Assembly (NCBI RefSeq): GCF_032842345.1
Contig: NZ_WBKO01000001.1
Span: 310,001-374,000, forward strand
Direction of reading: 5' to 3'
DNA length: 64,000 nucleotides
From: Methanoculleus caldifontis
GTDB taxonomy: Archaea; Halobacteriota; Methanomicrobia; Methanomicrobiales; Methanoculleaceae
Part shown: piece after piece, positions 7,981 through 52,429 of the stretch
How the letters are laid out: the number at the start of each line of letters is the position of its first letter
Position numbering within the stretch: position 1 is the stretch's first letter
Notes under the pieces: model-generated
The model's input: the letters and a program-made list of their open reading frames with translations, nothing else
Database searches by the model: none
Told to the model about the DNA's origin: nothing
Translations under genes and position numbers: made by a program

Positions 7981-10731
7981 ATGCAGAGTTCGAAACAATC
8001 ACCCGATACAGACCCTCCCCGGCTGCCGCGCAAGGAGGAACTCCTTCGCGTACTCGAGGATCTCTACGGCGGCTTCGCCGAGGCGGAAGAGACACTCTCG
8101 GCGATCCGGCGAGGGGAGGTCGATGCTTTTCTCGTCTCGACGGACGAGGGCGAGAAGGTCTACACCTTAAAGACCGCCGAGCATCCCTACCGGGTGCTCA
8201 TCGAGCAGATGCAGGAAGGCGCGGCGATCCTCTCCGTCGACGGCACCATCCTCTATGGCAACCGGAGCCTCGCCCGCCTGTTGCAGATGCCCCTCGAGAA
8301 GGTGCTGGGAGAGTCGATCCATGCCATCATCGCTCCGTCATATGCGGAGGAGTTCCGCCGAGTGCTTGAAGCCGAAAGCAATTCGGGAAGCATCGGCGAG
8401 AGCACGCTGGAGGGGCGGGAAGGAGGGCGGGTCCCGGTCCACCTCTCCCTGCAACCGTTATCGATGGACGGGATGCGGGCGTTCTCCCTGGTCGCCACGG
8501 ATCTGACCGAACGCAAGCAGGCGGAGGAGACCCTGCGGAGGGCGTACGACGACCTCGAGGACAGGGTCCGGGAGCGGACGGCCGAACTCGCCCGGACCAA
8601 TGCCCGGCTCCAGGTCGAGATCGAAGAGCGCACGCGGGCACAAGAGGCACTCCGGCGGAGCGAGCAGTCCCTCGCGGAGGAGCTGGACGCCGCGCGGCGC
8701 CTCCAGCAGGTCAGCACGCAGTTGATCCAGGCCGACAGGGTCGAGACGCTCTACGAGGAGATCCTCGATACCGCGGTGACGATCCTCCACGCCGATTTCG
8801 CGAGCATCCAGATGCTCCACCCGGACCGCGGGGCCGGGGGGGAACTCCGGCTTCTGGGCCACCGCGGGTTCACCGAGGAGGCCGCGAAGTTCTGGGAGTG
8901 GGTGCGCCCGGACTCCGGGAGTTCATGCGGTGAAGCGCTCTCTACCGGGCGGCGCGTCGTTGTCACGGACATTCGGGACTGCGAGTTCCTGGCCGGCAGC
9001 CCCGACCGGGAGGTATATCTCCGGGCCGGCATCAGGGCCGTCCAGACGACGCCGCTCTACTCGCGCTCCGGCATCCTGCTCGGGATGCTCTCCACGCACT
9101 GGCGCCGCCCCCATGACCCCACGCAAAACGAGCTGCGCTCCATCGATCTCCTGGCCCGCCAGGCCGCCGATCTCATCGACCGCAAGCGGGCTGAGGAGGC
9201 ACTGCGGGCGAATGAGGAGAGGTTCAGGCTGCTCACCGAGAATGCCTCGGATATCGTCGTCGTCCTCGACGCAACGGGACACATCAAGTACGCAAGCCCT
9301 TCGGTGAGACAGGTCGGGGGATATGCGCCCGAAGGACTCATCGGACGAAATATCATCGAACTGTTGCATCCCGGAGATCTGCTGCCGGCGATGGACGCCT
9401 TGCGTACATCGGCCACTCATCCTAAAGAGAGGATGACCCTCGAAGTCCGGGTCCGCGACGCCTCGGGAGACTGGCTGCACCTCGACCTGATCGGCGTCAA
9501 CCTTCTCGAAGAGCCGGCTGTTCGGGGTTTTCTAGTGAATGCACGTGACGTCACCGAGCAGAGACAGGCAGCAAAGATCCTCCGGGAGAGCGAGGAGAAG
9601 TACCGGAACCTGGTCGAGAACAGCATCGACGCCGTCCTTCTCACGGCCCCCGACGGCTCGATCTACGCCGCCAATGCCGAGGCCTGCCGGATCTTCGGGA
9701 TGACCGAGGAAGAGTTGATCCGCGCCGGCAGGGACGGCATCGTGGACCTCGCGGACCCCCGCCTCCGACCCGCTCTCGAGGAGAGGGGCCGAAAAGGGCG
9801 GTTTAAGGGAGAACTCAGGTTCCGGCGCAGAGACGGGACCGTCTTCCCCGGCGAGATATCGTCGGCGGTCTTTACGGACAGGGAAGGCAACGTCAGGATG
9901 ACGACGTTCATCCAGGATATCACAGGGCGGAAACGCGGGGAAGAAGCGCTTGCACGCCACACCGAAGCCCTCATCCGGGCGAGCCGGGAGGTCGAGGCGG
10001 CACGGGACGAGGCGAACATCTACCTCGACATCATGACCCACGATGTCCGGAACGCCAACAACGTCTCGAGCATGTACGCCGACCTCTTCATCGAACTCGC
10101 GGAGGGCGAGATGAAGACCTATGCCCGGAAACTGCAGGAGAGCATCGGCCGGAGCACCGAGATCCTCAAGAACGTCGCCACCATCCGCCGGACGCAGCAG
10201 GATTCCGACCGCCTGGTGCCGGTGAACCTCGATGCGGTCGCCCGGGAGGAGATCGCGAACTTCCCCGGCGCTTCGATCCGCTACCAGGGCGCTCATGCCG
10301 AGGTGCTGGCGGACGGCCTCCTCCCGACCGTCTTTAACAACCTCATCGGCAACGCCGTCAAGCACGGCGGTCCCGGCGTTGAGGTCACGGTCTGGACGGA
10401 GACACGGGACGGTGAAGTCTGCGTCTCGGTCGAGGATACCGGTCCCGGGATCCCTGACGAGATCAAGAAGAGGCTCTTCACCCGGTTCGAGCGGGGCATG
10501 GCGCGGGGGAGCGGCCAGGGCCTCGGTCTCTTCATCGTCCGGACGCTTGTTCTGCGTTACGGCGGAGAGGTCCGGGTCGACGACCGCATACCGGGCCGGC
10601 CGGAGTGCGGAGCGGCGTTCCGCTTCTCGCTCCGGCAGGCGGGTCCCGGCAGGGTGAGAGGTCCCGAGCCCGGAGCGGAGCGGCCATCACGGGCCGCAAC
10701 GGAGGGTGAAGCACGGAGCGGGGTGCGCTGA
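7981..10731 (+). CDS. Soluble multi-PAS/GAF sensor histidine kinase
   Basis: A 916-residue cytosolic signal kinase without membrane segments. Order: N-terminal helices (1-65); PAS1 (about 68-180) ending DLTERKQAEE; a coiled coil (about 185-245); GAF (about 250-400) with DSGSSCGEALSTGRRV; PAS2 (410-525); PAS3 (535-650); a dimerisation helix with the phosphate-accepting His near 686 in IMTHDVRNANNVS; and an ATPase domain with N-box NLIGNAVKHG near 787, VEDTGPGIPD and GQGLGLFIVR. It should autophosphorylate in response to a bound small molecule or redox cue, not identified. No receiver domain is attached. Its stop overlaps the next kinase start by one base, so the two are translationally coupled. 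Confidence 0.88.
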   Translation: MQSSKQSPDTDPPRLPRKEELLRVLEDLYGGFAEAEETLSAIRRGEVDAFLVSTDEGEKVYTLKTAEHPYRVLIEQMQEGAAILSVDGTILYGNRSLARLLQMPLEKVLGESIHAIIAPSYAEEFRRVLEAESNSGSIGESTLEGREGGRVPVHLSLQPLSMDGMRAFSLVATDLTERKQAEETLRRAYDDLEDRVRERTAELARTNARLQVEIEERTRAQEALRRSEQSLAEELDAARRLQQVSTQLIQADRVETLYEEILDTAVTILHADFASIQMLHPDRGAGGELRLLGHRGFTEEAAKFWEWVRPDSGSSCGEALSTGRRVVVTDIRDCEFLAGSPDREVYLRAGIRAVQTTPLYSRSGILLGMLSTHWRRPHDPTQNELRSIDLLARQAADLIDRKRAEEALRANEERFRLLTENASDIVVVLDATGHIKYASPSVRQVGGYAPEGLIGRNIIELLHPGDLLPAMDALRTSATHPKERMTLEVRVRDASGDWLHLDLIGVNLLEEPAVRGFLVNARDVTEQRQAAKILRESEEKYRNLVENSIDAVLLTAPDGSIYAANAEACRIFGMTEEELIRAGRDGIVDLADPRLRPALEERGRKGRFKGELRFRRRDGTVFPGEISSAVFTDREGNVRMTTFIQDITGRKRGEEALARHTEALIRASREVEAARDEANIYLDIMTHDVRNANNVSSMYADLFIELAEGEMKTYARKLQESIGRSTEILKNVATIRRTQQDSDRLVPVNLDAVAREEIANFPGASIRYQGAHAEVLADGLLPTVFNNLIGNAVKHGGPGVEVTVWTETRDGEVCVSVEDTGPGIPDEIKKRLFTRFERGMARGSGQGLGLFIVRTLVLRYGGEVRVDDRIPGRPECGAAFRFSLRQAGPGRVRGPEPGAERPSRAATEGEARSGVR

Positions 10732-12416
10732 TGAGCGGATCCGGCGATGTGCAGGCAACCGACGCGATACGCTCCACCCTGCAGATACTGCGGGAAGAGG
10801 CCGATCCTGCCGGCTGCCGCCTCATCGACGCGCTCGCGGACCGGATCGACGCGCTCGAAGAGCGCGCCCGGCAGGCTGAAGAGGAGCGTGACCGGCTCAG
10901 AGAGGAGGGCGAAGTGGAACACGCCATGCTGCGGGCGACGATCGACCGGCTGCCTGCCGGCGTGATCGTCGTCGATGCGCCGTCAGGAGAACTGGTCCTC
11001 GGCAACGAGCAGGCGAGCCGGATCCTGGAGCACCGCTACCCCGCGACCGGCAGGGTGCAGGACCTTTTTGCGGGGATCGGCCTTCACCCCGACGGGCGGC
11101 CATACAGGCCCGACGAGTGGCCGGTCTGCCGGTCGATCGCCGCAGGAGAGAGGGTCGCGGGCGAAGAGATCAGGTTCGTCCGGGCGGACGGCACCACGGG
11201 GTTCATCGAAGTCAGTTCCGCACCCATAGCCTGTTCGGGGGGCGAACCCCGGTACGGCGTCGCCGTCTTCTCGGACATCACCGAGCGGAAGCGGGCGCAG
11301 GAGGCCCGGCTTGAGCAGGAAGAGCAGTTGCGGAGCCTGATCGAGAGCTCCGCCGATGGGATTCTCATCACCGACGAGGCAGGCAGGATCACCACCTGGA
11401 ACATGGGGATGGAGGCGATCACCGGTCTTTCCGCCGGGAGCGTCTCCGGAATGCCTGCATGGGAGGTCCTCTCGCGGGTCGTGAACGAGGAGTGGGCGGG
11501 GCCGGATAACCGGGCGCGGTATCGCGCCATCTGGGAGAGGCTGTTGCGGGACGGGGCGTACCGGCACCTCAACCGCCTCCTGGAGGTCCAGATCCAGACT
11601 CCGCAGGGCATCCGGCACCTCCAGCAGAACGTATTCGTGACTCCTACCCGGCAGGGTTTCCGCGTCGGGTGCATCGTCAGGGATATCACCGACGGCAGAT
11701 GGACGGACGAGGCCCTCCGGCACCACGCCGAGGACCTCGCCCGGCTGAACGCGGACCTCGAATACGCCCAGCGCGAGGCGAACCTCTATCTCGACATCCT
11801 GACGCACGACATCGGGAACACCGAGAACGTCTCGAACCTCTACGCCGACCTCCTCGTCGAGAGCCTGCAGGAGGAGACAGAGGCGACGGATTATGCCAGG
11901 AAACTCCGGCGGAGCGTCAGGAGGAGTATCGAGATCCTGGGTATGGTCTCCAAGATCCGCCGGATTCACTTCGGCAAAGCGGAACTCGCGCCCGCAGATC
12001 TCGATGCGGTCATCCAGGACGAGATCGGCCGCTATCCTGCGGGAGCCGTCCGGTACCGGGGCCATGCGAGCCGGGTTCTGGTCGACGAACACCTGGCGGA
12101 AGTTCTCTCGAACCTGATCGGCAACGCCGTCAAGCACGGCGGCCCCGGCGTCGCGGTCACTGTCCGGACGGAGGATGCGGGGGAGTTCGTCCGGGTCTCG
12201 GTCGAGGATACCGGTCCGGGCGTGCCGGACGGGGAGAAGGAGGCGGTCTTCCACCGCTACGAGCAGCAGAAGCGGGGCGTCGGCGAGGGGCTCGGCCTCT
12301 ACCTCGTGAAGATCCTGGTCGAGCGCTACGGCGGGAAGGTCTGGGTCGAGGACAGGGTGCCGGGCCGACCGGAAGAGGGGGCGGCGTTCCGGTTCACGCT
12401 GAGGACTGCCGCGTGA
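10731..12416 (+). CDS. PAS-domain sensor histidine kinase, second of a coupled pair
   Basis: A soluble 561-residue kinase. After an N-terminal coiled coil (DRIDALEERARQAEEERDRL) come PAS1 (about 65-190, ending DITERKRAQEARLEQEEQL) and PAS2 (about 200-325), then the helix with LTHDIGNTENVSNLYADLL (His near 358) and an ATPase domain with NLIGNAVKHG near 461, VEDTGPGVPD and GEGLGLYLVK. The His box and ATPase domain closely match those of the upstream kinase, pointing to duplication. The ATG shares one base with the upstream stop (TGATG), so both are made from one message. The cognate response regulator is not in this window. Confidence 0.87.
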   Translation: MSGSGDVQATDAIRSTLQILREEADPAGCRLIDALADRIDALEERARQAEEERDRLREEGEVEHAMLRATIDRLPAGVIVVDAPSGELVLGNEQASRILEHRYPATGRVQDLFAGIGLHPDGRPYRPDEWPVCRSIAAGERVAGEEIRFVRADGTTGFIEVSSAPIACSGGEPRYGVAVFSDITERKRAQEARLEQEEQLRSLIESSADGILITDEAGRITTWNMGMEAITGLSAGSVSGMPAWEVLSRVVNEEWAGPDNRARYRAIWERLLRDGAYRHLNRLLEVQIQTPQGIRHLQQNVFVTPTRQGFRVGCIVRDITDGRWTDEALRHHAEDLARLNADLEYAQREANLYLDILTHDIGNTENVSNLYADLLVESLQEETEATDYARKLRRSVRRSIEILGMVSKIRRIHFGKAELAPADLDAVIQDEIGRYPAGAVRYRGHASRVLVDEHLAEVLSNLIGNAVKHGGPGVAVTVRTEDAGEFVRVSVEDTGPGVPDGEKEAVFHRYEQQKRGVGEGLGLYLVKILVERYGGKVWVEDRVPGRPEEGAAFRFTLRTAA

Positions 12417-12502: not shown

Positions 12503-12539
12503 CCCCGGCGTACCTCCTCCATCCCCGGGTGAAGTTGCC

Positions 12540-12755
12540 ATGCCGGGTTCTCTTCATTGCGAATATTGCGGGCGGGAGTTTCTTGCGGAGCATCAGACCG
12601 CGCACGGAAACGTGCGGTTTTGCAGCGCCGGGTGCCTGACGGCGGCGGGAGAGCAGGACGCCGACCGGAGGGAAAGCCGGCCGGAGAGGTTCCTGGTCTC
12701 GGGCCGGTCGCCCTGGGGCGAGGCTCCCCGCCGGACGAGAGATACCTCTCGATAG
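12540..12755 (+). CDS. Zinc-finger microprotein, copy A
   Basis: A 71-residue protein with two Cys pairs, CEYC (Cys7, Cys10) and CSAGC (Cys28, Cys32), which should bind one zinc ion. The C-terminal half QDADRRESRPERFLVSGRSP is nearly identical to copy B at 15300. I know no function. The 10 extra C-terminal residues differ from copy B, because the stop seen in copy B is lost. It converges on the epoxide hydrolase gene, the two stops being two bases apart. Similar small Cys4 proteins bind nucleic acid or act as adaptors (inference only). Confidence 0.7.
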   Translation: MPGSLHCEYCGREFLAEHQTAHGNVRFCSAGCLTAAGEQDADRRESRPERFLVSGRSPWGEAPRRTRDTSR

Positions 12756-12757
12756 GG

Positions 12758-13951
12758 TTACCTGCGGTGCGGTCCCGGCATCGCCGGCTCCCCCGCCGAT
12801 ACCGGGGGGTTCCGGAGCGGCCGGAAGAACGCCCGGATCTCCCGGGCCATCAGCTCCGGGACCTCCATCGGCGCAAAGTGGCCGCCCCGCTCGAGCACCG
12901 TCCACCGCCGGATATCCTTTAAGTTGCGCTCCGCGTACTCCCGGGGGGGAATCGGATCGATATCCTTCGGCGGGAGCGCAAGCCCCACCGGGACGTCGAC
13001 CTGTTGATCCGGTGCAAGCGAACCCGACACCCATTCCTCGCGGTAACTGAGCGCCCTGACCGAAGGCCCGCCCGTCCAGTAGAGCATGATGTTCGTCAGC
13101 AGTTCGTCTTTCGTGTAGACCGTCTCCAGGTCCCCGTCGCAGTCGCTCCAGGTGTGGAACTTCTCGACGATCCAGGCGGCGTAGCCGGCGGGGGAGTCGT
13201 TCAGTCCGTAGGCGAGCGTCTGCGGTTTCGTGCCCTGGAGCACCGCATACGCACCCTCAGAAAAACCCTGCGCCTGCGATCTCGCGAGGTACTCCCGCTC
13301 CGCATCGGAGAGGTCCGGGAAGTTCGCCATCATTATGGGGAAGCCGATGTCGGTGAGGTGGAGGCCGACGACCGATTCGGGGTGGCGCACGCCGAGGATC
13401 TGCGAGATCGGGCTGCCGCCGTCCCCGCCGCCGGCGCCGAAACGCTCATACCCGAGCTCTTCCGTCATCAGCCGATACGAAATCTCCGCTATTTTTGCAA
13501 GCGGTTGTCCTGTATCCGATCGCGACATGCCGGGATCGCCGATCAGCGAGGGGACGACGACGTCGAACGAGTCGGCGGGATCGCCGCCATACGCCGCCGG
13601 GTCGGTGAGCATCGGGATCAGTTTGAGGTAACGGCAGATCGAGTCCGGCCAGCCGTGGAAGAGGACGAGCGGCATCGGATCCGGCCCCTTCCCCCGCTCG
13701 TGGACGAACCGGATCTCCGTCCCGTCGATATCGGCGGTATAGTGGACGAACCGGTTCAACTCCGCTTCGCGGGCCCGCCAGTCGTAGGTGTGCCGCCAGT
13801 ACTCGACCAGTTCCCGCAGGTAGTCCGGGTCCGTGCCGTAGTCCCAGCCCGCGCCCTCGACCGCGTCGGGGAAGCGGGTGCGGGCGAGGCGGGAGCGGAG
13901 GTCGTCGAGCGTCTCCTCCGGGACGGCGAGGGTGAACGGCCGCACCGTCAT
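12758..13951 (-). CDS. Epoxide-hydrolase-like alpha/beta hydrolase, downstream copy
   Basis: A 397-residue protein. The N-terminal lid domain found in microsomal-type epoxide hydrolases (residues about 1-100, PEETLDDLRSRLARTRFPDA and WDYGTDPDYLRELVEYW) precedes the alpha/beta core. The oxyanion-hole motif is FHGWPDS, the nucleophile region FGAGGGDGGSPIS has Asp as the likely nucleophile, and the catalytic His lies in RGGHFAPME. Where the upstream copy has PGYGFSDRP, this copy reads IGDPGMSRSDTG, so the substrate pocket has diverged. The ATG overlaps the upstream copy's stop (ATGA), so the two are coupled. A longer open frame running upstream to 14827 is antisense-type noise inside the sister gene. 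Confidence 0.85.
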   Translation of the reverse strand: MTVRPFTLAVPEETLDDLRSRLARTRFPDAVEGAGWDYGTDPDYLRELVEYWRHTYDWRAREAELNRFVHYTADIDGTEIRFVHERGKGPDPMPLVLFHGWPDSICRYLKLIPMLTDPAAYGGDPADSFDVVVPSLIGDPGMSRSDTGQPLAKIAEISYRLMTEELGYERFGAGGGDGGSPISQILGVRHPESVVGLHLTDIGFPIMMANFPDLSDAEREYLARSQAQGFSEGAYAVLQGTKPQTLAYGLNDSPAGYAAWIVEKFHTWSDCDGDLETVYTKDELLTNIMLYWTGGPSVRALSYREEWVSGSLAPDQQVDVPVGLALPPKDIDPIPPREYAERNLKDIRRWTVLERGGHFAPMEVPELMAREIRAFFRPLRNPPVSAGEPAMPGPHRR

Positions 13952-15126
13952 CGCGACACCTCCAGGGGCTTCCGGTGCTCCGCCCGCAACGGCCGGAAGA
14001 ACGTCCGGATATCCTCGGCAAGCAGTTCCGGCTCCTCCATCGCCGTAAAATGGCCGCCCCGCGGCATTTCGGTCCAGCGCTGCACATTCAATCTCCGCTC
14101 CACCCATTCGCGGGGGGGCGGGATGAAGTCTTTCGGGAAGACCGCCATCCCCATCGGGACGTCGATCCGCTGCTCCAGGAAGTCTAACGGCAGGGCGTGC
14201 ACGTTCTCGTAGTAGAGGCGGACCGACGATGCGATCGTCTCGGTCGCCCAGTAGATCATGATGTTCGTCAGGAGGTCGTCTTTGCTGAAACGCCGCTCGA
14301 TATCCCCGCCGCAGTCGCTCCACGACCGGAACTTCTCGACGATCCAGGCGGCAAGGCCCGCGGGAGAGTCGTTCAGACCGTAGGCGAGCGTCTGCGGCTT
14401 CGTCGACTGCACCATGCTGTAGGCGCCCTCCCGCATCCACAATTCCTGGATCGCATCCAGGTACCTCCGCTCGTTCTCCGAGAGGTCCGGGATATTGGCG
14501 CCGAGGGAGAAGAAGCCAGGATCGGTGAGGTGGAGGCCGACGACCCGATCGGGGTGCGCGAGCGCCAGGAGCTGGGAGACCCCGCTCCCGATGTCCCCGC
14601 CCCCCGCGGCGAATCGCTCGTAGCCGAGGACGTCCGTCATCAGTGTTGCCCAGAGGCCGCCGATCCGCTTCGACGTCATACCCCGATCGTGCGGGCGGTC
14701 GGAGAACCCGTAGCCGGGCATCGACGGGACGACGACGTCGAACGCGTCGGCCGGATCGCCGCCGAACCGGGCCGGATCGGTAAGGAGCGGGATCAGTTTG
14801 AGGTAACGGTAGAAGGAATCCGGCCACCCGTGCGTCAGGACGAGCGGGAGCGGGTCAGGGCCCCTGCCCCGCTCGTGGATGAAGTGGATCCCGACGCCGT
14901 CGATCTCGGTGCGGAAGTGAGAGTGCCCGTTCAGTTCTTCTTCACGTGCCCGCCAGTCGAACCGGTTCAGCCAGTGATCGACGATCTCTTCCATATAACT
15001 CAGGTTCGTGCCGTAGTCCCAGCCCGAACCTTCGACCTCATCGGGGAAGCGGGTGTGAATAAGGCGCTCCCGGAGGTCGTCCAGGACCGGTTCGGGAATG
15101 TCGATGCGAAAAGACTGCACTGGCAT
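13948..15126 (-). CDS. Epoxide-hydrolase-like alpha/beta hydrolase, upstream copy
   Basis: A protein of about 392 residues of the same family as its downstream neighbour, similar over the full length. It keeps the standard marks: an N-terminal lid with PEPVLDDLRERLIHTRFPDE, oxyanion hole THGWPDS, PSMPGYGFSDRP, nucleophile loop FAAGGGDIGSGVSQL, and RGGHFTAMEEPE with the base His. The family opens epoxides by an Asp-ester intermediate to give diols; the natural substrate in a methanogen is unknown. The ATG at 15124-15126 follows GGTGGTTGAG and matches the sister's N-terminus; an ATG 12 bases upstream is the alternative. Confidence 0.87.
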   Translation of the reverse strand: MPVQSFRIDIPEPVLDDLRERLIHTRFPDEVEGSGWDYGTNLSYMEEIVDHWLNRFDWRAREEELNGHSHFRTEIDGVGIHFIHERGRGPDPLPLVLTHGWPDSFYRYLKLIPLLTDPARFGGDPADAFDVVVPSMPGYGFSDRPHDRGMTSKRIGGLWATLMTDVLGYERFAAGGGDIGSGVSQLLALAHPDRVVGLHLTDPGFFSLGANIPDLSENERRYLDAIQELWMREGAYSMVQSTKPQTLAYGLNDSPAGLAAWIVEKFRSWSDCGGDIERRFSKDDLLTNIMIYWATETIASSVRLYYENVHALPLDFLEQRIDVPMGMAVFPKDFIPPPREWVERRLNVQRWTEMPRGGHFTAMEEPELLAEDIRTFFRPLRAEHRKPLEVSR

Positions 15127-15254
15127 CTCAACCACCATGCGGGGATTGCTGCAGGCAGGGGAGATAACCCTTTCGTGCTGCAGAGCTATGCGGATTTCGT
15201 CGAAGAAAACGCCCTGGCCGGATCGACGAAGGCGGTTTTCCGGGGCATGTGGAT

Positions 15255-15263
15255 AGATATATC
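15255..15263 (+). promoter_or_regulatory. TATA box, microprotein copy B
   Basis: AGATATATC lies 45 bases before the ATG, at the position equivalent to the box of copy A. Confidence 0.55.
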
Positions 15264-15299
15264 ACCTGACGCACCTTTTCCATCCTGAGGTGAGTTCAG

Positions 15300-15485
15300 A
15301 TGCCTGAATCTGTTTATTGCGGACACTGCGGGCGGGCGTTCCTGGTGGAAGAGCGAAACGCGCTCGAAGGCGTACCTTTTTGCAGCGCCGAGTGTCGGGC
15401 GGCGGCAGGGAAGCAGGACGCCGACCGGAGAGAGCGCCGGCCGGAGAGATTCCTGGTCTCGGGTCGATCCCCCTGGAGCAAGTAG
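15300..15485 (+). CDS. Zinc-finger microprotein, copy B
   Basis: A 61-residue protein with CGHC (Cys7, Cys10) and CSAEC (Cys28, Cys32) and the same C-terminal block RPERFLVSGRSPW as copy A. The ATG follows GAGGTGAGTTCAG, a good ribosome-binding site. Sequence similarity to copy A spans promoter, gene and about 45 bases past the stop, so a unit of about 290 bases was duplicated. Past the stop, CCTGC...GCAGG with an inner ACCTC/GAGGT pair can form a hairpin that may end transcription. Function unknown. Confidence 0.7.
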   Translation: MPESVYCGHCGRAFLVEERNALEGVPFCSAECRAAAGKQDADRRERRPERFLVSGRSPWSK

Positions 15486-21473: not shown

Positions 21474-21680
21474 GAACTTCGCGTTCTTCGCGGCTTCGCG
21501 TGAGGTAACTGGTGTGGATAGCGATACAGTCTCACGCGAAGTGCGAGCGTAAGCGTATCTTTGAGCACCGTAGGTGCGAGGCGCGAAGCCGCGAAATTCG
21601 GTGTCCGGGTGCTGCGGACTCCATGTTAAGTAGTCGTACGAGGCTGCATTGCTCGATGTCGGATATCAAAAATAGTGAGG
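21474..21680. repeat. Dispersed structured repeat, copy A
   Basis: Fills the gap between the convergent methyltransferase and aIF2-beta genes. CTTCGCGTGAG (21494-21504) pairs with CTCACGCGAAG (21531-21541) across a 26-base loop. A GCACC-GTA-GGTGC mini-hairpin follows, then a second CGCGAAGCCGCGAA arm. The tail GCTGCATTGCTCGATGTC with CAAAAAT, just before the minus-strand stop, recurs in copy D. No ORF uses the element. Confidence 0.75.
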
Positions 21681-25087: not shown

Positions 25088-25285
25088 ATCTCTTCGCGCC
25101 TTCGCGGCTTCGCGGCTTCGCGTGAGGTCGTATCACCCCCCCAAAATAAACTCACGCGAAGCCGCGAAGTGCGATGGGCCAAAGGGCCGGAGCTCGAGTA
25201 CCATCAGGTGCGAAGAACGCGAAGTGCGACGGTTCAGTGTCTGAGCATGAGAAGCCGTCAGACTTCGCTGTGCGACGGGCGGGAC
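25088..25285. repeat. Dispersed structured repeat, copy B
   Basis: Lies between the flavodoxin start and the ilvC 3' end. Two perfect 19-base arms, CTTCGCGGCTTCGCGTGAG (25108-25126) and its reverse complement (25151-25169), enclose 24 bases. Rightward follow GGCC-AAAG-GGCC (25177-25188), a GTACC-ATCA-GGTGC box and GAAG...CTTC. These are the same modules, read from the minus strand, as in copies D and E but with different stem sequences. Confidence 0.8.
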
Positions 25286-31513: not shown

Positions 31514-31794
31514 CGTCATCGATAGTCGACGCCAGCAAACCCTCTGCCTGCATTTCTCGCACCTGCCGGTGCTCAAGCCCGCTCTCGTTCACGCCTCAAA
31601 GCCCTCCGGCCGCCAGTCCCCCCGGGTGGGCCGGGAGAGGCCACGGCAGAGCGTGCGTCTCCGCTCGATTGAGTGGGCGCAGAGACCCGGGAGTCACGGG
31701 CAAAAACTTCGGAAAAACGGGAAAAACGGCTCTGTTGAAATGCTTCACACCCTCTGGAGAACGTCCGGGTACCACGAGATGGTGGTGATGTGAC
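31514..31794. other. Intergenic stretch after the frh operon
   Basis: About 280 bases without a convincing gene. Short open frames here have arginine-rich, non-coding composition. The dispersed repeat copy C follows. Confidence 0.4.
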
Positions 31795-31918
31795 CTCACG
31801 CGAAGCCGCGAAGTGCGAGCGTAGCGAGCTTGAGCACCGTCAGGTGCGAAGAACGCGAAGGAGGCTGTCAGTATCCATTCAGGCTTCGTGCCTTCGCGGC
31901 TTCGCGTGAGTCGAGTCG
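31795..31918. repeat. Dispersed structured repeat, copy C
   Basis: CTCACGCGAAGCCGCGAAG (31795-31813) and its reverse complement (31892-31910) enclose 78 bases that hold GCACC-GTCA-GGTGC and a GCGAGCGTAGCGAGC stretch seen in the other copies. It lies between the convergent ends of the frh operon and the AdoMet decarboxylase-like gene. Confidence 0.8.
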
Positions 31919-32102
31919 TATGGAGAATTCTGCAGACGATTCGATCTCAGGGAGAGGGATTCAACAAAGCCGGAAAAACATAAAATCGAGGGTGGGGGCC
32001 GCCCCCCGTCGCAGGAACCGATTACACGTACGGGGGATGGCAGCGGCTCTCTGCCGTCGTATTACGTACTGATGAGGCGTAGAAGCCCGGGTGTGTTCGT
32101 AT

Positions 32103-33108: not shown

Positions 33109-33705
33109 TCACCGGGGGTGCCCCGCTGCGACCTCTGCAAGCGTCCGGCCGGAGACGACCGACCGGGGCTCCGCCGCGACCGGGTCCCGCCCGGGATCCG
33201 CCTCCGCGTCGGCCTTCTTCACGAGCAGCCAGGCCTCACCCTTCCCGGTCCGGAACCGGGTGAGGGCGTACCCGCCTCCGATCTTCTCCCCTTCGAGCCG
33301 GAAGGAGATGTGGCCCCGCCGGAGGCCCTCGGCGATCCCGATCTCCTGCCCGCCCTGCTCCGTGAGGTTCCGGTAGGTCCCCCGGTCCCAGACGAGGACC
33401 GTCCCCGCCCCGTAACTCCCCTCAGGGATGACGCCCTCGAACTCAGCGTAGCCGAGGGGGTGGTCTTCGGTCGGGACGGCGAGGCGCTTCGTTTTCGGGT
33501 CGAGGGACGGCCCTTTCGGGACCGCCCAGGACTTCAGGACGCCGTCGACCTCCAGGCGGAAGTCATAGTGGAGCGCGGTCGCTTCGTGGAGCTGGATGAC
33601 GAAGATAGGAAGGGTGCCGGCCGCGCCGGACTCCCCCGGCGGCTCCGGCGTCAGAGAGAAGTCACGCTTTTCGCGGTAATCGTCGAGCGTGTCGGGTCCT
33701 GCCAT
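33109..33705 (-). CDS. LigD-type 3'-phosphoesterase domain protein, stand-alone
   Basis: A 198-residue protein made of the DNA ligase D 3'-phosphoesterase domain: FVIQLHEATALHYDFRLE, with the HxDxRxE active-site group, LKSWAVPKGPSLDPKTKRLA, TEDHPLGYAEFEGVIPEGSYGAG with catalytic His, and GTVLVWDRGTY. The domain trims 3'-phosphate or ribonucleotide ends before ligation in double-strand break repair. Ku, ligase and primase partners are absent from the window. The ATG 33703-33705 is chosen; the frame stays open further upstream into the dispersed repeat, where it has no coding sense. The C-terminal 30 residues are Ala/Arg-rich. Confidence 0.85.
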   Translation of the reverse strand: MAGPDTLDDYREKRDFSLTPEPPGESGAAGTLPIFVIQLHEATALHYDFRLEVDGVLKSWAVPKGPSLDPKTKRLAVPTEDHPLGYAEFEGVIPEGSYGAGTVLVWDRGTYRNLTEQGGQEIGIAEGLRRGHISFRLEGEKIGGGYALTRFRTGKGEAWLLVKKADAEADPGRDPVAAEPRSVVSGRTLAEVAAGHPR

Positions 33706-33799
33706 ACGGAGATACTCCGGCAGGATCCCGGATAAGGGTTCGCCCGGCTTCAGTACTTCGCTCAGCTTTGAGAGGGGGCCACGGAGGTCAAACCACTGA

Positions 33800-34235
33800 C
33801 TTTCCGTCGCACCTTCGGTGCCCAAACTCCGTTCCTGATGGAACGTCGTTCTTCGAAGCCAGATGGCTTCTCATGCTCGCTATGCTCGCATTTCGCACCT
33901 AACGGTGCTCGAACCCCGACCCAAAGGGCCGTCGTCCTTCGAACCCCTCTGGGTTTCTCATGCTCCGTTCCTGACGGAACATCGCACTTCGCACCTAGCA
34001 GTGCTCAAACTCCACTCCTGACGGAGCGTCGCACTTCGCACCTAGCAGTGCTCAAACTCCACTCCTGACGAAGCGTCGTCCTTCGCGGCTTCGCGTCTTT
34101 CGCGTGAGGCCCTGTTTGTTACCCTTGTACGTCACCTCACGCGAAGCCGCGAAGGACGCGAAGTCCAGGCGCTACCAGCTCCTCTTCGCACCTTCACCCG
34201 ATACTGCATTGTTCGATCTCGAACGCAAAAATTAG
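33800..34235. repeat. Dispersed structured repeat, copy D (largest array)
   Basis: A 430-base string of mini-hairpins: GTTCC-TGAT-GGAAC (33831-33844), GAAGCC-AGAT-GGCTTC, GCACC-TAAC-GGTGC (33896-33908), AACCC-CTCT-GGGTT (33942-33955), GTTCC-TGAC-GGAAC (33967-33980), then CTCC-TGAC-GGAG in a tandem pair, joined by constant spacers such as GCTCAAACTCC and TTCTCATGCTC. It ends in long arms (34081-34109 against 34135-34155) and the tail ACTGCATTGTTCGATCTCG beside the ATPase stop. Confidence 0.85.
33982..34075. repeat. Two tandem 47-base units inside repeat copy D
   Basis: Units at 33982-34028 and 34029-34075 differ by one base. Each begins TCGCACTTCGCACC and contains GCAC-CTAGCA-GTGC and CTCC-TGAC-GGAG (second unit GAAG). 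Confidence 0.85.
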
Positions 34236-34248
34236 CGAAGTGTTGAGC

Positions 34249-36612
34249 CTATAGATCCCGGCCGGAGGCGGGGACGATCCGGACGTTCATCTTCTCCGAG
34301 CCGATGATCAGGATCCCTTCTCCGGGCTGGAAGTTCAGGAGGTCCTTCTCGCTCACCTCGAAGAACTTGGCGTTCTCCTGGGCCTGCTTCTTGTTCTCGG
34401 AACGCATGCAGAACTTGACGGCGATGTTTGCCAGGATCTCCTCGTTGAAGTGGGCGATGAGCTGGGACGCGAGGATGAGCGAGACCCCGAACTTCCGCAT
34501 CTCGGTGGCGTACTTGTTCAGCACCGCCTTGATCGCCGTCTTCGAGCCGCTCTTCTGGCTCACCAGGAGTTTCGCCTCGTCGACGATGACGAAGAGCCGG
34601 AACTTCGCCCGCTCGTCCTCCGTCCCCCGCGGGATCTCGCCCGTCGCCTGGAGGGTGTAGTAGATCCGCCGGAGGAAGAGGTCCGCAAAGAGGTAGCGCA
34701 GGTTCTCGGGGAGCGCGTTTAAGTTGATATGGGTGATCCCGCCCGAGAGGATGGTGGGGATCGAGATCTTCTCCTCGCCCGAGAAGAGTTTGTAGTCGAA
34801 GATATCCTCGAGGTAGGCCGGGATCGCCTCGTCCTCGCAGTCCATGATCTCGCTCTCGATGTCGTCGAAGTCGAGCACCCGCTTCCAGGTATCGGTGTTC
34901 CCCGTGATCCCCGATATCCGGTAGCAGTCCTTGATGATGTTCTTGATCTTCCTCCTCTGCTGGATGCCGAGGGTCGGGAAGTTGATCGAGATGGCGTCGA
35001 CGAAGTCCGAGGTGGCCCGGAGCGGGGTGATCTCGTCGATGTCGGCGTCGAGTTCCAGCGGGTTGAAGTAATACTGGCCGCCCTCGCGGATCTTGTAGGA
35101 CCGGAGAACCCCGGCGCTCGCGGCCATGTCCCCGTGGAAGTCCATCAGGACGACCGGCATCGCCTGGGCGGCGAGTTCCCCCGCGATGCAGCGGATCGTC
35201 TCGGTCTTGCCGGCGCCCGATCCCCCGAGGATGATCATGTGGCCGTTGTTCAGCCTCCCCGGCGACCAGTTGATCCGCCGCCCGTCCGGGGCGTGGCCGA
35301 GGAAGACGTCGAGCCCGCCGGGGCGGGCAGGGTCCGGGGCTGGTGCCGGCGCCGGAGCGGGGGTCGGCCGGGGCGCAACGGTCCTGCGGGGGGAGGGAGC
35401 GGGCGGCGGAGGGAGCGGCACCTCCTCTTCTTCCACGGCCTCCTCCTCTTCCACCAGGTCGTCATCGTCGAAGACGGCGTCCTCCCACCCGTCCGCCTCC
35501 TCCCCGACGTCGACAGGGGGCAGGGGGGCGGGGGCCGGAACTTCGTCCGGCACAACGGGGGGCGCCGCTACAGGGGGGAGCGGCTCTGCGGCCGGAGCCG
35601 GCCGGTCGATCGCGATTTTCTCGGCGACGCCGGCCACCAACGCCCTGCCGAGGTCGCGGAGGCGTGCCTCGTAGAGGTCCCGGTCCCGGACGACGAACCG
35701 CGCGAGACCGACCCCGTCGTCCTCGCGAACCTCCTCAAGGACGTAGACCGCACCGGAGAGCCCGGAGAGCACCCTCGAGAGCTCGCGGCGGTGGGCCGGC
35801 GAGGCCCGTATGCGGTCTACGTCCTCGTCGCAGGCGAGGTAGCGCAGGACGGTGAAGGTCGAGTGGAACGACTCAAGGAGCATGTCGTAGTGCTCCCGGA
35901 CCGCGGGATCGATCGCCTCGAGCATCGCCTTGAGGATGTAGGCGAACTCCGGCGGGAACGTGTAGACGACACCGTCGGTCCTGCCTCCGTCCAGGTCGAA
36001 GGCGTAGGCGAGGACCGCGCAGCCAGCGGCCTTGAGGCGGGCGGCGAACCGCTCGCACTCCTCGAAGAGGCCGGGGCTGTTGTTGAGGAGGAAACCGATG
36101 AACGTCTCCTCGGTCCGGGGGAGCGTCGAGGGGAAGGTCTTGTTGATGTACGATCCCTTGACAGTCCCCGCGAGGAGGACCGGGACGGCCCCATGGATCT
36201 CGCGGGCGAGAACCCCGATATCCAGCGCCCGGATCCGGGCCTCCATCAGCGGCCGGGCGATCGCCTCTCCGCCAGGTGTCGTCCGCACCACCGTCGTGCC
36301 GTTCCGCGAGACAGACTCGATGAGGCCGACCTCGGCGAGCGCAAAGAGCGGTCCCGACGTGTAGGCGTAGCAGCTCTGCTCGACCACGCCCACCCCCTCC
36401 CCGCGGGACGACGAGCTGTTCAGGGCGATGTGGATGTAGAGGAGCGTCTCGATGATGTCGCGGACCTCCAGCGGCCGGAAGTCCTGCAGGTATTCGATGA
36501 CGGCGGGAGGGAACGACAGAGAGAGGGCCGGGATCCCGGCATCCGTATAGCCCATCGCTCTGAGTGCTTCGGTAAGGTCTGTCGACACGGGTTCACCAGC
36601 GGAACAGTTCAT
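34249..36612 (-). CDS. HerA-like ATPase with unknown N-terminal domain
   Basis: A 787-residue protein. Residues 1-335 are an unrecognised, mostly helical domain. Residues about 337-440 are a Pro/Ala linker with an acidic core (FDDDDLVEEEEAVEEEE) and APAPAPAPDP. Residues 441-787 form a HerA/DUF87-type motor: ILGGSGAGKTETIRCI (Walker A near 461), LMDFHGDM, FRLFVIVDEAKLLVS (Walker B near 674) and VSLILASQLIAHFNEE (sensor). HerA-type hexamers move DNA in repair or conjugation. NurA is not nearby. The start is ATG 36610-36612; a GTG 24 bases in, after GGTGA, is an alternative. Confidence 0.85.
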   Translation of the reverse strand: MNCSAGEPVSTDLTEALRAMGYTDAGIPALSLSFPPAVIEYLQDFRPLEVRDIIETLLYIHIALNSSSSRGEGVGVVEQSCYAYTSGPLFALAEVGLIESVSRNGTTVVRTTPGGEAIARPLMEARIRALDIGVLAREIHGAVPVLLAGTVKGSYINKTFPSTLPRTEETFIGFLLNNSPGLFEECERFAARLKAAGCAVLAYAFDLDGGRTDGVVYTFPPEFAYILKAMLEAIDPAVREHYDMLLESFHSTFTVLRYLACDEDVDRIRASPAHRRELSRVLSGLSGAVYVLEEVREDDGVGLARFVVRDRDLYEARLRDLGRALVAGVAEKIAIDRPAPAAEPLPPVAAPPVVPDEVPAPAPLPPVDVGEEADGWEDAVFDDDDLVEEEEAVEEEEVPLPPPPAPSPRRTVAPRPTPAPAPAPAPDPARPGGLDVFLGHAPDGRRINWSPGRLNNGHMIILGGSGAGKTETIRCIAGELAAQAMPVVLMDFHGDMAASAGVLRSYKIREGGQYYFNPLELDADIDEITPLRATSDFVDAISINFPTLGIQQRRKIKNIIKDCYRISGITGNTDTWKRVLDFDDIESEIMDCEDEAIPAYLEDIFDYKLFSGEEKISIPTILSGGITHINLNALPENLRYLFADLFLRRIYYTLQATGEIPRGTEDERAKFRLFVIVDEAKLLVSQKSGSKTAIKAVLNKYATEMRKFGVSLILASQLIAHFNEEILANIAVKFCMRSENKKQAQENAKFFEVSEKDLLNFQPGEGILIIGSEKMNVRIVPASGRDL

Positions 36613-36926
36613 GGGGCCGGGATCTCCCGGAGACCCCGGGAAAGCCGCTCCAGACGGGTACCGGGACGGTACCGCTTCAGTGAAGCAGCCGATTGAATTA
36701 GATTTGCTCTGCGAGCTATTAAACATAGGTTGTTTTGAAAAACCGTCCGCATCCCCGCAAGGATACTCCCCGGCAGAAAGCGCCGCCGCGTTGCGAGAGG
36801 GGGCCGACGGTTGCCGGGGCCTCCCCTCGAAAATCGTTGCATATCTCTTAAAATCAGCGTATCAGGACGATATGGATATTATTATATTATCAAAATTATA
36901 TATACTAGAAGTCAGGGAGCGTGCCC
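36613..36926. other. Divergent promoter region, A/T-rich
   Basis: Separates the divergently read HerA-like ATPase and histidine kinase genes. AAAATTATATATACTAG near 36893-36909 is a strong TATA zone for the kinase, about 20-30 bases before its start. TTTAATAGC near 36714-36722 (minus strand) may serve the ATPase. No gene seen. Confidence 0.55.
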
Positions 36927-38342
36927 ATGACAATCATTACCGAAGAGCGGCGACTGGCCATCCTCATAGCCCTTCTGGCCGCGTCGGTCTTCATGACATA
37001 CTACTTCAACACCGTCGTAATGCTCGGAACGGTCTTTTCGCACTTCTTCTACATCCCGATCATCCTGACCGCACTCTGGTGGAAGAAGCGGAGCATCCCG
37101 GTCGCCCTCTTCCTCGGCGGCCTCGTCATCGCGAGCAGTTTTCTCTACAACAGGCCGGATATCCTGACGTTAAACGACTACGCACGCGTCATGACGTTCG
37201 TCGTCATCGCCTTCGTCGTCGCCTCACTCTCCGAACAACTCAAAGGGCGCGAGCGGGAGGTTGTGGAGCAGAGGGACCTCGTTCAGCGCTACCTGGACGT
37301 GGCGGGCGTCCTCTTCGTCGTCATCAACGCCGACCACACCATCCGGCTCGTCAACCGCCACGGCTGCGAGCTGCTCGGCTACCGCGAGGAGGAACTGATC
37401 GGAAAGAACTGGTTTGAGATCGTCGTTCCCGAAGCATCCCGGAAAGCACGGCAGGAGATCTTCGATGCCGCGATCGCCGGAGGGGCGAGCCTGTCCGGCA
37501 GGCGGGAGAACCCGGTCGTCACCCGGAGCGGGGAGGAACTCATCCTCGCGTGGCAGGACACGGTTCTTGCCGGCGACGGCGACCGGCCGGCCGCGATGAT
37601 CGGATCGGGAGTCGACATCACCGACCGGATCCGGGCGGAAGAGGCGCTGCGGGAGGCCCACGGCGAGGCGAACCTCTACCTCGACATCATGGCGCACGAC
37701 ATCAACAACGCGAACGCCGTCGCCCTCGGCTACTCGGACCTGCTCGCCGGGGAGCTGGAGGGTGAGAGGCAGCGGGAGATGGTCCGGAAACTCAGGGGCA
37801 GCATCGACCGGAGCATCGATATCATCCAGAACGTCTCGACGATCCGGCGCCTCCGTTCCGCAGAACCGTCGACGAGGCCCGTCGACCTCGACGCGGTCAT
37901 CAGGGCCGAGATCGCCCATCACCCCGACGCCAGGATCGTCTACGAGGGAGAGCCCGTCCGGGTCACGGCCGACGACCTCCTGCCCGAGGTCTTCACGAAC
38001 CTGATCGGCAACAGCATCAAGTTCGGGGAGCCCGGCGTCGAGGTGAGGGTCCGGGTCGAGGAAGGCGACGGGGTGGTCGAGGTCACGGTCGAGGATACCG
38101 GCCCCGGCGTGCCCGACGCGGTGAAAGCCGGTCTCTTCACCCGGTTCCGGCGGGGCACGAGCGCCCGGAGCGGGAAGGGGCTCGGCCTCTATATCACCAG
38201 GATGCTCGTCGAGCGATACGGCGGGAGGATCCGGGTGGAAGACCGCATACCGGGTTACCCCGAACGCGGGGCGGCGTTCCGGTTCACCCTTCCCCGGTGC
38301 GGGCGGCCGTGGGAACCGCGGCCGGCTACCGCCAGATCCTGA
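36927..38342 (+). CDS. Membrane PAS-domain sensor histidine kinase
   Basis: A 471-residue kinase. Four hydrophobic segments occupy residues about 8-105 (LAILIALLAASVFMTYYF, VFSHFFYIPIILTALWW, VALFLGGLVIASSFLY, VMTFVVIAFVVASL), a form like the small N-terminal domain of archaeal membrane kinases. A PAS domain follows (about 118-235, ending GVDITDRIRAEE), then IMAHDINNANAVALGYSDLL with His near 256 and an ATPase domain with NLIGNSIKFG, VEDTGPGVPD and GKGLGLYITR. It shares its catalytic half with the kinases at 8-12 kb. The last 17 bases overlap the convergent DUF2124 gene. A GTG two codons upstream is an alternative start. Confidence 0.87.
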   Translation: MTIITEERRLAILIALLAASVFMTYYFNTVVMLGTVFSHFFYIPIILTALWWKKRSIPVALFLGGLVIASSFLYNRPDILTLNDYARVMTFVVIAFVVASLSEQLKGREREVVEQRDLVQRYLDVAGVLFVVINADHTIRLVNRHGCELLGYREEELIGKNWFEIVVPEASRKARQEIFDAAIAGGASLSGRRENPVVTRSGEELILAWQDTVLAGDGDRPAAMIGSGVDITDRIRAEEALREAHGEANLYLDIMAHDINNANAVALGYSDLLAGELEGERQREMVRKLRGSIDRSIDIIQNVSTIRRLRSAEPSTRPVDLDAVIRAEIAHHPDARIVYEGEPVRVTADDLLPEVFTNLIGNSIKFGEPGVEVRVRVEEGDGVVEVTVEDTGPGVPDAVKAGLFTRFRRGTSARSGKGLGLYITRMLVERYGGRIRVEDRIPGYPERGAAFRFTLPRCGRPWEPRPATARS

Positions 38343-48104: not shown

Positions 48105-48345
48105 TAGGAGCGTGCTGATACTTCCCTTCACACCTTCGGTGCTCGAACTCCTTTCCCTTTAGGAAAGTCGTCCTTCAAAGCCTGATGGCTTCTCAAGCTC
48201 ACTTACGTTCGCACTTCGCGGCTTCGCGCCTTCGCGTGAGGTTTTTGCTATCTCTATGATAACCTCGCGCGAAGCCGCGAAAAACGCGAAGTTTGGTATG
48301 TCGCTGAGAGTAACTCCTTTTCGCGCCTTCGCGTGAGCCGGTGCT
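48105..48345. repeat. Dispersed structured repeat, copy E
   Basis: Lies between the convergent M1 peptidase and MBL hydrolase genes. Modules in the same order as copy D: CACC-TTC-GGTG, CTTTCC-CTTTA-GGAAAG (48151-48167), AAGCC-TGAT-GGCTT (48177-48190), then CTTCGCGGCTTCGCG arms (from 48214) and CCTCGCGCGAAGCCGCGAA (from 48263). Confidence 0.82.
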
Positions 48346-52384: not shown

Positions 52385-52429
52385 GTCATACTCTGCAAAC
52401 GGGGGCGAGTCAGAGCATCGCAGATGCGA

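Follow-up and report, generated by a model that had tools for sequence, protein, structure and literature searches.

Results

Hairpin chains and their setting

The window analysed here is a 64,000-nucleotide stretch of the Methanoculleus caldifontis genome. At 33.8-34.1 kb it carries an array of alternating mini-hairpins, A and B, with near-constant linkers between them. On its two sides are a HerA-like ATPase gene, whose 3' end faces the array, and a LigD-type phosphoesterase gene, with the array directly at its 5' end (Table 1); these two genes are neighbours in most Methanoculleus species examined. One unit of ~38-47 bp comprises two mini-hairpins (A + B) joined via short linkers. We use R for one strand of the units, which is the minus strand in this array. 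On R the chain runs GA-[A]-GA-NNNN-GA-[B]-GA-NNNNN-GA-[A]..., for example GAAGTGCGA[TGTTCCGTCAGGAACG]GAGCATGA; GA...GA brackets every hairpin, a short lower stem that also covaries supports it, and its loop is usually of the G..A type (GNA or GNNA).

Table 1. Genes, hairpin units and host repeats in the window (positions count from its first nucleotide)
Feature	Position	Strand	Basis or detail
Hairpin unit adjoining core pair	21538..21586	+	covariance-model match, 31.1 bits
Two successive hairpin units adjoining core pair	25166..25220 and 25221..25275	+	covariance-model matches
Lone weak unit near 3' end of FrhB-family gene	31550..31597	-	covariance-model match, 22.4 bits
Full-length MITE, ends GGCTCTGTTGAAAT / TTCAACAAAGCC	31728..31971 (C1:341728-341971)	+	8-bp target duplication GGAAAAAC
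38-bp hairpin unit inside 31.8 kb MITE	31814..31851	+	linker-only pattern, covariance model
LigD_N 3'-phosphoesterase-domain gene	33109-33825	-	
MITE-like inserted element, holds array and one core pair	33748..34245		imperfect terminal inverted repeats
Unit (A+B)	33803..33854	- (R)	covariance-model match, 49.8 bits
Unit, B stem GAAGCC/GGCTTC, short A stem GC-ATA-GC	33846..33895	-	linker-only pattern
Mini-hairpin unit	33886..33940	-	covariance-model match, 60.4 bits
Unit, B stem GAACCC/GGGTTT, A stem GTTCC/GGAAC	33932..33990	-	linker-only pattern
Mini-hairpin unit	33982..34037	-	covariance-model match, 69.5 bits
Unit, tandem copy of 33982..34037 unit	34029..34084 (C1:344029-344084)	-	whole-genome covariance-model match, 65.5 bits
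Core arm CTTCGCGGCTTCGCGTCTTTCGCGTGAG	34081..34108	+	sequence
Inverted core arm (CTCACGCGAAGCCGCGAAGGACGCGAAG on +)	34136..34163	-	REPIN-like pair with 34081-34108; sequence
HerA-like ATPase gene	34249-36726	-	
Two overlapping units adjoining core arms	48123..48218	-	covariance model 48123-48176; linker pattern 48168-48218
Single GA-bracketed B-type hairpin, GA GCATC GCA GATGC GA, beside core arm	52413..52429	+	by eye

A pattern of the linkers alone, with the stems left free, gave 89 unit matches in 340 kb of the M. caldifontis genome, sampled as stretches around matches, and none in the same 340 kb read backwards. A covariance model built from 31 of the linker-pattern units was then run on this genome and recovered at least 146 units (146 of the best 150 candidates). 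In the window it placed units at 21.5, 25.2 (two), 31.55, 31.8, 33.80-34.08 and 48.1 kb. The initial annotation, made by a model from the sequence alone, had reported long arms at six sites and mini-hairpins at five of them. Arms of the CTTCGCGGCTTCGCGTGAG type are indeed present at all six, and the five hairpin sites hold; the sixth, at 52.41 kb, also has a hairpin, which gave no match with the two-hairpin covariance model. The units at 48.1 kb present a CTTTCC/GGAAAG slot and then a GAAGCC-type slot. The 31.8 kb unit is identical to units in other backbones (C2:112.7 kb, C2:412.85 kb and C1:229.5 kb), and the sequence at the 31.55 kb site is shorter in the relative G062.

Elsewhere, about ten head-to-tail copies of a ~38 bp unit (AGAAGCGTGAGCGTCAGCGAACGTGAGCACCGGAGGTGG) lie downstream of an FrhB gene (L332, genome G050). 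Arrays from other families of the order (L094 in G164, L095 in G002) have very different stems, CGGGCC-AAAA-GGCCCG and GGTTTC-TCAT-GAAACC, with the GA-bracket or TC-bracket design kept.

The units are nested in other repeats

The initial annotation gave 33800-34235 as the extent of the element. The array is real, but these coordinates fall inside a larger inserted element (~33748-34245), which has CTTCAGTACTTCGCT at 33.75 kb and AGCGAAGTGTTGAG at 34.24 kb as its ends; its boundaries are approximate, the ends having been read by eye. At the orthologous site of the nearest relative, G060 (95% nucleotide identity), there are 14 bp vs 513 bp here, and ends alike or related to those of the element occur in G070, G071 and G076. 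Ends of the AGTACTTCGCT type recur around several other core sites of the genome.

The host element at 31.8 kb is a MITE of the 207-bp type. It has terminal inverted repeats (GGCTCTGTTGAAAT) and 8-bp duplications, and its site is uninterrupted in G062 (96% identical next door), where it reads CCGGAAAAACATAAAATCG. Its ends and the 8-bp duplication are reminiscent of the IS6 family. No IS240/IS6-type DDE transposase (PF13610) that could serve the host MITEs was found in the M. caldifontis genome.

The core pattern TTCGCGNCTTCGCGTGAG, allowing up to two mismatches, has 127+120 = 247 matches genome-wide and none when read backwards. Its many intergenic copies mostly form inverted pairs (-+ and +- dominate) with two alternating spacers, as in BIMEs. 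G073 and G079 contain 62 and 53 hairpin units, respectively, without a single core match. Therefore, the core and the hairpin units are independent families, and the initial annotation had merged two separate repeat families in describing long arms and mini-hairpins as one. A third host backbone (CAGTGGACCGTGGGGATATCGCCATTGGGGG-like) carries units in core-less species (L087, L098, orthologues of the 31.5 kb site in G063, G073 and G052).

The inverted pairs and alternating spacers of the core would fit a classical REP/BIME (REPIN) mobilised by a RAYT/IS200-type Y1 transposase, and specificity for one single DNA strand is also typical of REP (PMC8266576). We consider this origin improbable for the hairpin units. 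Their stems vary freely, and no GTAG-type tetranucleotide was found at the hairpin foot, the units being bracketed by GA...GA instead. The M. caldifontis genome has no match to the Y1 (HUH) transposase family PF01797. Of the 35 genus genomes, 7 have matches, and these are mainly genomes poor in hairpins or devoid of them; G078, for example, combines 19 Y1 matches with none for the hairpins. Y1 is rare across the genus and, if anything, anti-correlated with the units. The reverse transcriptase (PF00078) by which a retroelement would be recognised was likewise not found in the M. caldifontis genome and occurs in 3 of 35 genus genomes.

Stems change on both sides

The initial annotation had noted that stems change together on a constant scaffold and had set paired changes against random expectation as the test. 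Among 31 distinct units, 91.8% of pair cells hold standard pairs, compared to 79.1±1.1 after shuffling, and the covariation score is 0.455 vs 0.222, a value reached in none of 500 shuffles. Cells changed on both sides number 60 (23.4 in shuffled sets), and 10 of the 15 pairs show such changes; since the units are related through copying, these pair-cell counts are not independent. Slid versions of the pairing all reach only 32-43% in the same set. With 81 units from this and other genomes, in an alignment that had been fitted to the covariance model, 92.6% are paired vs 75.6 and the score is 0.415 vs 0.159±0.009. The lower stem, which spans the linkers around A, covaries too (TGC/GCA, AAC/GTT, CGC/GCG). 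Thus, covariation exceeds the shuffled controls in both sets, and the proposal that structure is selected or maintained was right.

These matched changes also bear on one option of the initial annotation, an array of double-strand protein-binding sites, as in nucleoid organisation. The regular spacing and constant linkers would suit such an array. However, duplex binding would conserve sequence and not pairing, and it leaves unexplained the tolerance, on one strand, of G-T but not of A-C pairs (below). We regard a duplex array as very improbable.

R is the folding strand

Counted over distinct hairpins, R has 42 G·T pairs and 8 A·C pairs (p=1e-6), with ratios of 28:5 in the M. caldifontis genome and 26:3 at loci from other genomes. 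This excess identifies R as the folding strand. In addition, under RNA and DNA parameters alike, 66 of 67 units fold more stably as R than as the complement. Of 68 triloops on R, 47 have the form GNA, and of 56 tetraloops 37 have the form GNNA; C-G closes most of these loops. Loops of the G..A kind make up ~67% in the units vs 4% in the background (12 of 291 other C-G-closed hairpins of the same DNA). A GNA or GNNA loop on at least two G-C pairs is the extra-stable, nuclease-resistant DNA mini-hairpin motif of Hirao, of which d(GCGAAGC) has a Tm of 78 C (PMC4686876); about two thirds of unit loops are of this form.

The loop types of R point to DNA, short of proof. The RNA fold of R is equally favoured by energy, so the case for DNA is built on the loop type, the lack of strand bias and the turnover of units; RNA also tolerates G-T pairs, which counts against a reading as DNA only. 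Two RNA motifs were considered and set aside. The GA/GA motif is not a kink-turn, as its flanks pair directly, without a 3-nt bulge (AAC/GTT, TGC/GCA, CGC/GCG; by eye), and the RNA GNRA tetraloop is not the main loop type on R, where GNYA (26) outnumbers GNRA (11).

Position relative to genes and transcripts

Gene calls and Pfam bear out the earlier statement that all copies in the window are intergenic and at gene 3' ends; four of the six sites are convergent and two tandem. The window also has diverged long direct repeats, probably paralogous genes (10000-12400 and 37650-38290; 12530-15480). In a sample of 42 arrays, 17 are convergent, 22 tandem and 1 divergent, and 2 lie inside gene calls or at edges; the single divergent array compares with 40 of 184 intergenic regions in the sample.

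This placement raised the possibility that the hairpins are structured RNA, selected in transcripts for a role at the 3' end (as terminators, mRNA stabilisers or protein-binding RNA). Covarying stems, G-T tolerance on one strand, a strong RNA fold of R (z=-5.5) and the location of copies at the 3' ends of genes, convergent pairs included, all favour it. A 3'-UTR RNA would fold on the sense strand of the upstream gene. Among arrays at tandem-gene sites, which had been chosen via nearness to the core motif, R is the sense strand 10 times and the antisense strand 12 times. This lack of bias argues against a 3'-UTR RNA. Relative to replication, no obvious strand bias of R was seen by eye. Further points against an RNA are the GNYA-rich tetraloops, the absence of the element from the same gene ends in close relatives, the presence of units in either arm of MITEs and an Rfam scan whose only match was a tRNA, with none for the hairpin elements. 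Together, these results make structured RNA unlikely, and the structured 3' elements of the initial annotation, taken in the RNA sense, find no support. Covariation in a genome is not proof of a functional RNA; here it occurs without a transcript-strand bias.

Units differ as wholes between near-identical hosts

MITE backbones with 0, 1 or 2 units at one point are nearly identical. The copies at C1:255.7 kb and C3:54.0 kb lack a unit, the copy at C2:112.6 kb has one of 38 bp, and that at C2:412.7 kb has two (40+38 bp), the 38-bp unit being that of C2:112.6 kb at the same point. A diverged MITE (~83%) at C2:192.9 kb holds a 40-bp unit identical to that of C2:412.7 kb. Similarly, the orthologous core between the HerA-like and LigD_N genes has no unit in G056, one in G048 and two in G047. 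Unit boundaries fall on the short repeat GCGA/GCGAAG. Gain or loss is not set by a tree, and these whole-unit differences are therefore unpolarised. Of the options in the initial annotation, the mobile non-coding element is the one supported, by the empty sites and by the 0/1/2-unit differences in near-identical MITEs and orthologous loci.

Model matches were found in 53 of 232 genomes of the order, including 33 of 35 in Methanoculleus; one other genus of the same family has many units, and matches elsewhere in the order are sparse. Within Methanoculleus, unit counts are low in G055, G064, G065, G066, G068, G075 and G078. Unit-pattern records among the matches listed come from Methanoculleus, other Methanomicrobiales and unclassified Euryarchaeota MAGs. 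The single Chloroflexi match among them resembles protein-coding sequence and was dismissed as chance, and a plasmid search gave no match.

Discussion

We think it probable that the units are modular, non-autonomous mobile DNA cassettes selected for folding as single-stranded DNA. The matched stem changes suggest that a folded single DNA strand is the target of selection or of copying machinery. Within REPIN-like core repeats and MITEs, whole units would come, go and multiply in tandem. R would fold as single-stranded DNA with GA/GA tandem mismatches and GNA/GNNA loops, and the folded strand may be copied into GCGA/GCGAAG sites by a replication or recombination intermediate or by a structure-specific enzyme, while stem sequence would drift freely as long as pairing survives. 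Spread would thus proceed via folded single-stranded intermediates at GCGA repeats, with or without an enzyme. More tentatively, the units could represent a new class of single-stranded DNA cassettes with a putative enzyme that reads shape and inserts at GCGA-type sites. If a shape-reading enzyme recognises the GA/GA brackets, G..A loops and lower stem, an element could change almost all of its letters and stay mobile.

The same features might arise with no selection for structure, as a mutational by-product of single-stranded hairpins that cause template switching, slippage and gene conversion between GCGAAG repeats, with palindrome correction making the matched stems. Unit boundaries at the short repeat, common tandem duplicates, identical units in different backbones and the lack of a dedicated enzyme in searches for Y1 and reverse transcriptase are in keeping with such a process. 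Simple correction of arms, however, predicts neither G..A loops nor constant GA/GA brackets, nor the one-strand excess of G-T over A-C found in two data sets, and we judge a by-product of this kind fairly unlikely.

Small hairpin repeats are common in prokaryotes. Three features are seldom seen in one family: stems that evolve by compensation at the DNA level, a folding strand that can be defined, and close species that differ cleanly by whole units. Finding all three in culturable archaea without an obvious transposase makes the spread of transposase-less hairpin repeats directly testable.

For Methanoculleus marisnigri, satellite families with repeats of 45 and 51 nt are on record, described solely as tandem repeats (PMC6749651). 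These lie near the period of the units and are possibly a tandem form of the hairpin element; we found no description of hairpins, covariation or mobility in that paper (PMC6749651). In the open-access literature, which leaves most subscription journals outside, no paper joined Methanoculleus with MITEs. Both host elements look like ordinary MITEs, one of them with an 8-bp target duplication. Unlike MITEs, the hairpin units lack terminal inverted repeats of their own, and they vary within MITEs. The palindrome-associated elements of haloarchaea are MITEs comparable to the host elements. Pneumococcal BOX elements resemble the Methanoculleus chains in being modular repeats whose internal stem-loop modules vary in number; the likeness is one of description, and to our knowledge BOX modules do not covary as these units do. 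Integron attC sites are folded single-stranded DNA recognised by structure, with drifting stem sequence. The comparison is an analogy only, since no R/L boxes or integrase context were seen around the units.

The REP/BIME/REPIN elements served by TnpA-REP (RAYT) share high copy number, intergenic location, an inverted-pair core and strand-specific hairpins. The Methanoculleus units differ in their variable stems and nested cassettes, and they fall outside the RAYT-driven class because neither its transposase nor its GTAG tag was found. Closest in design are the mitochondrial double-hairpin elements (DHE) and related repetitive hairpin-forming elements, which have two hairpins, are mostly intergenic and occur irregularly among close species (PMC2800124, PMC10085805). 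The units share with DHE two adjacent hairpins, a mostly intergenic location, a patchy occurrence among relatives, a mobile appearance at small size and no known enzyme, a likeness of design for which no homology is expected. In contrast to DHE, they lie on an archaeal chromosome and form tandem chains with GA/GA brackets and G..A loops, and their stems vary where those of sponge mitochondrial elements are conserved.
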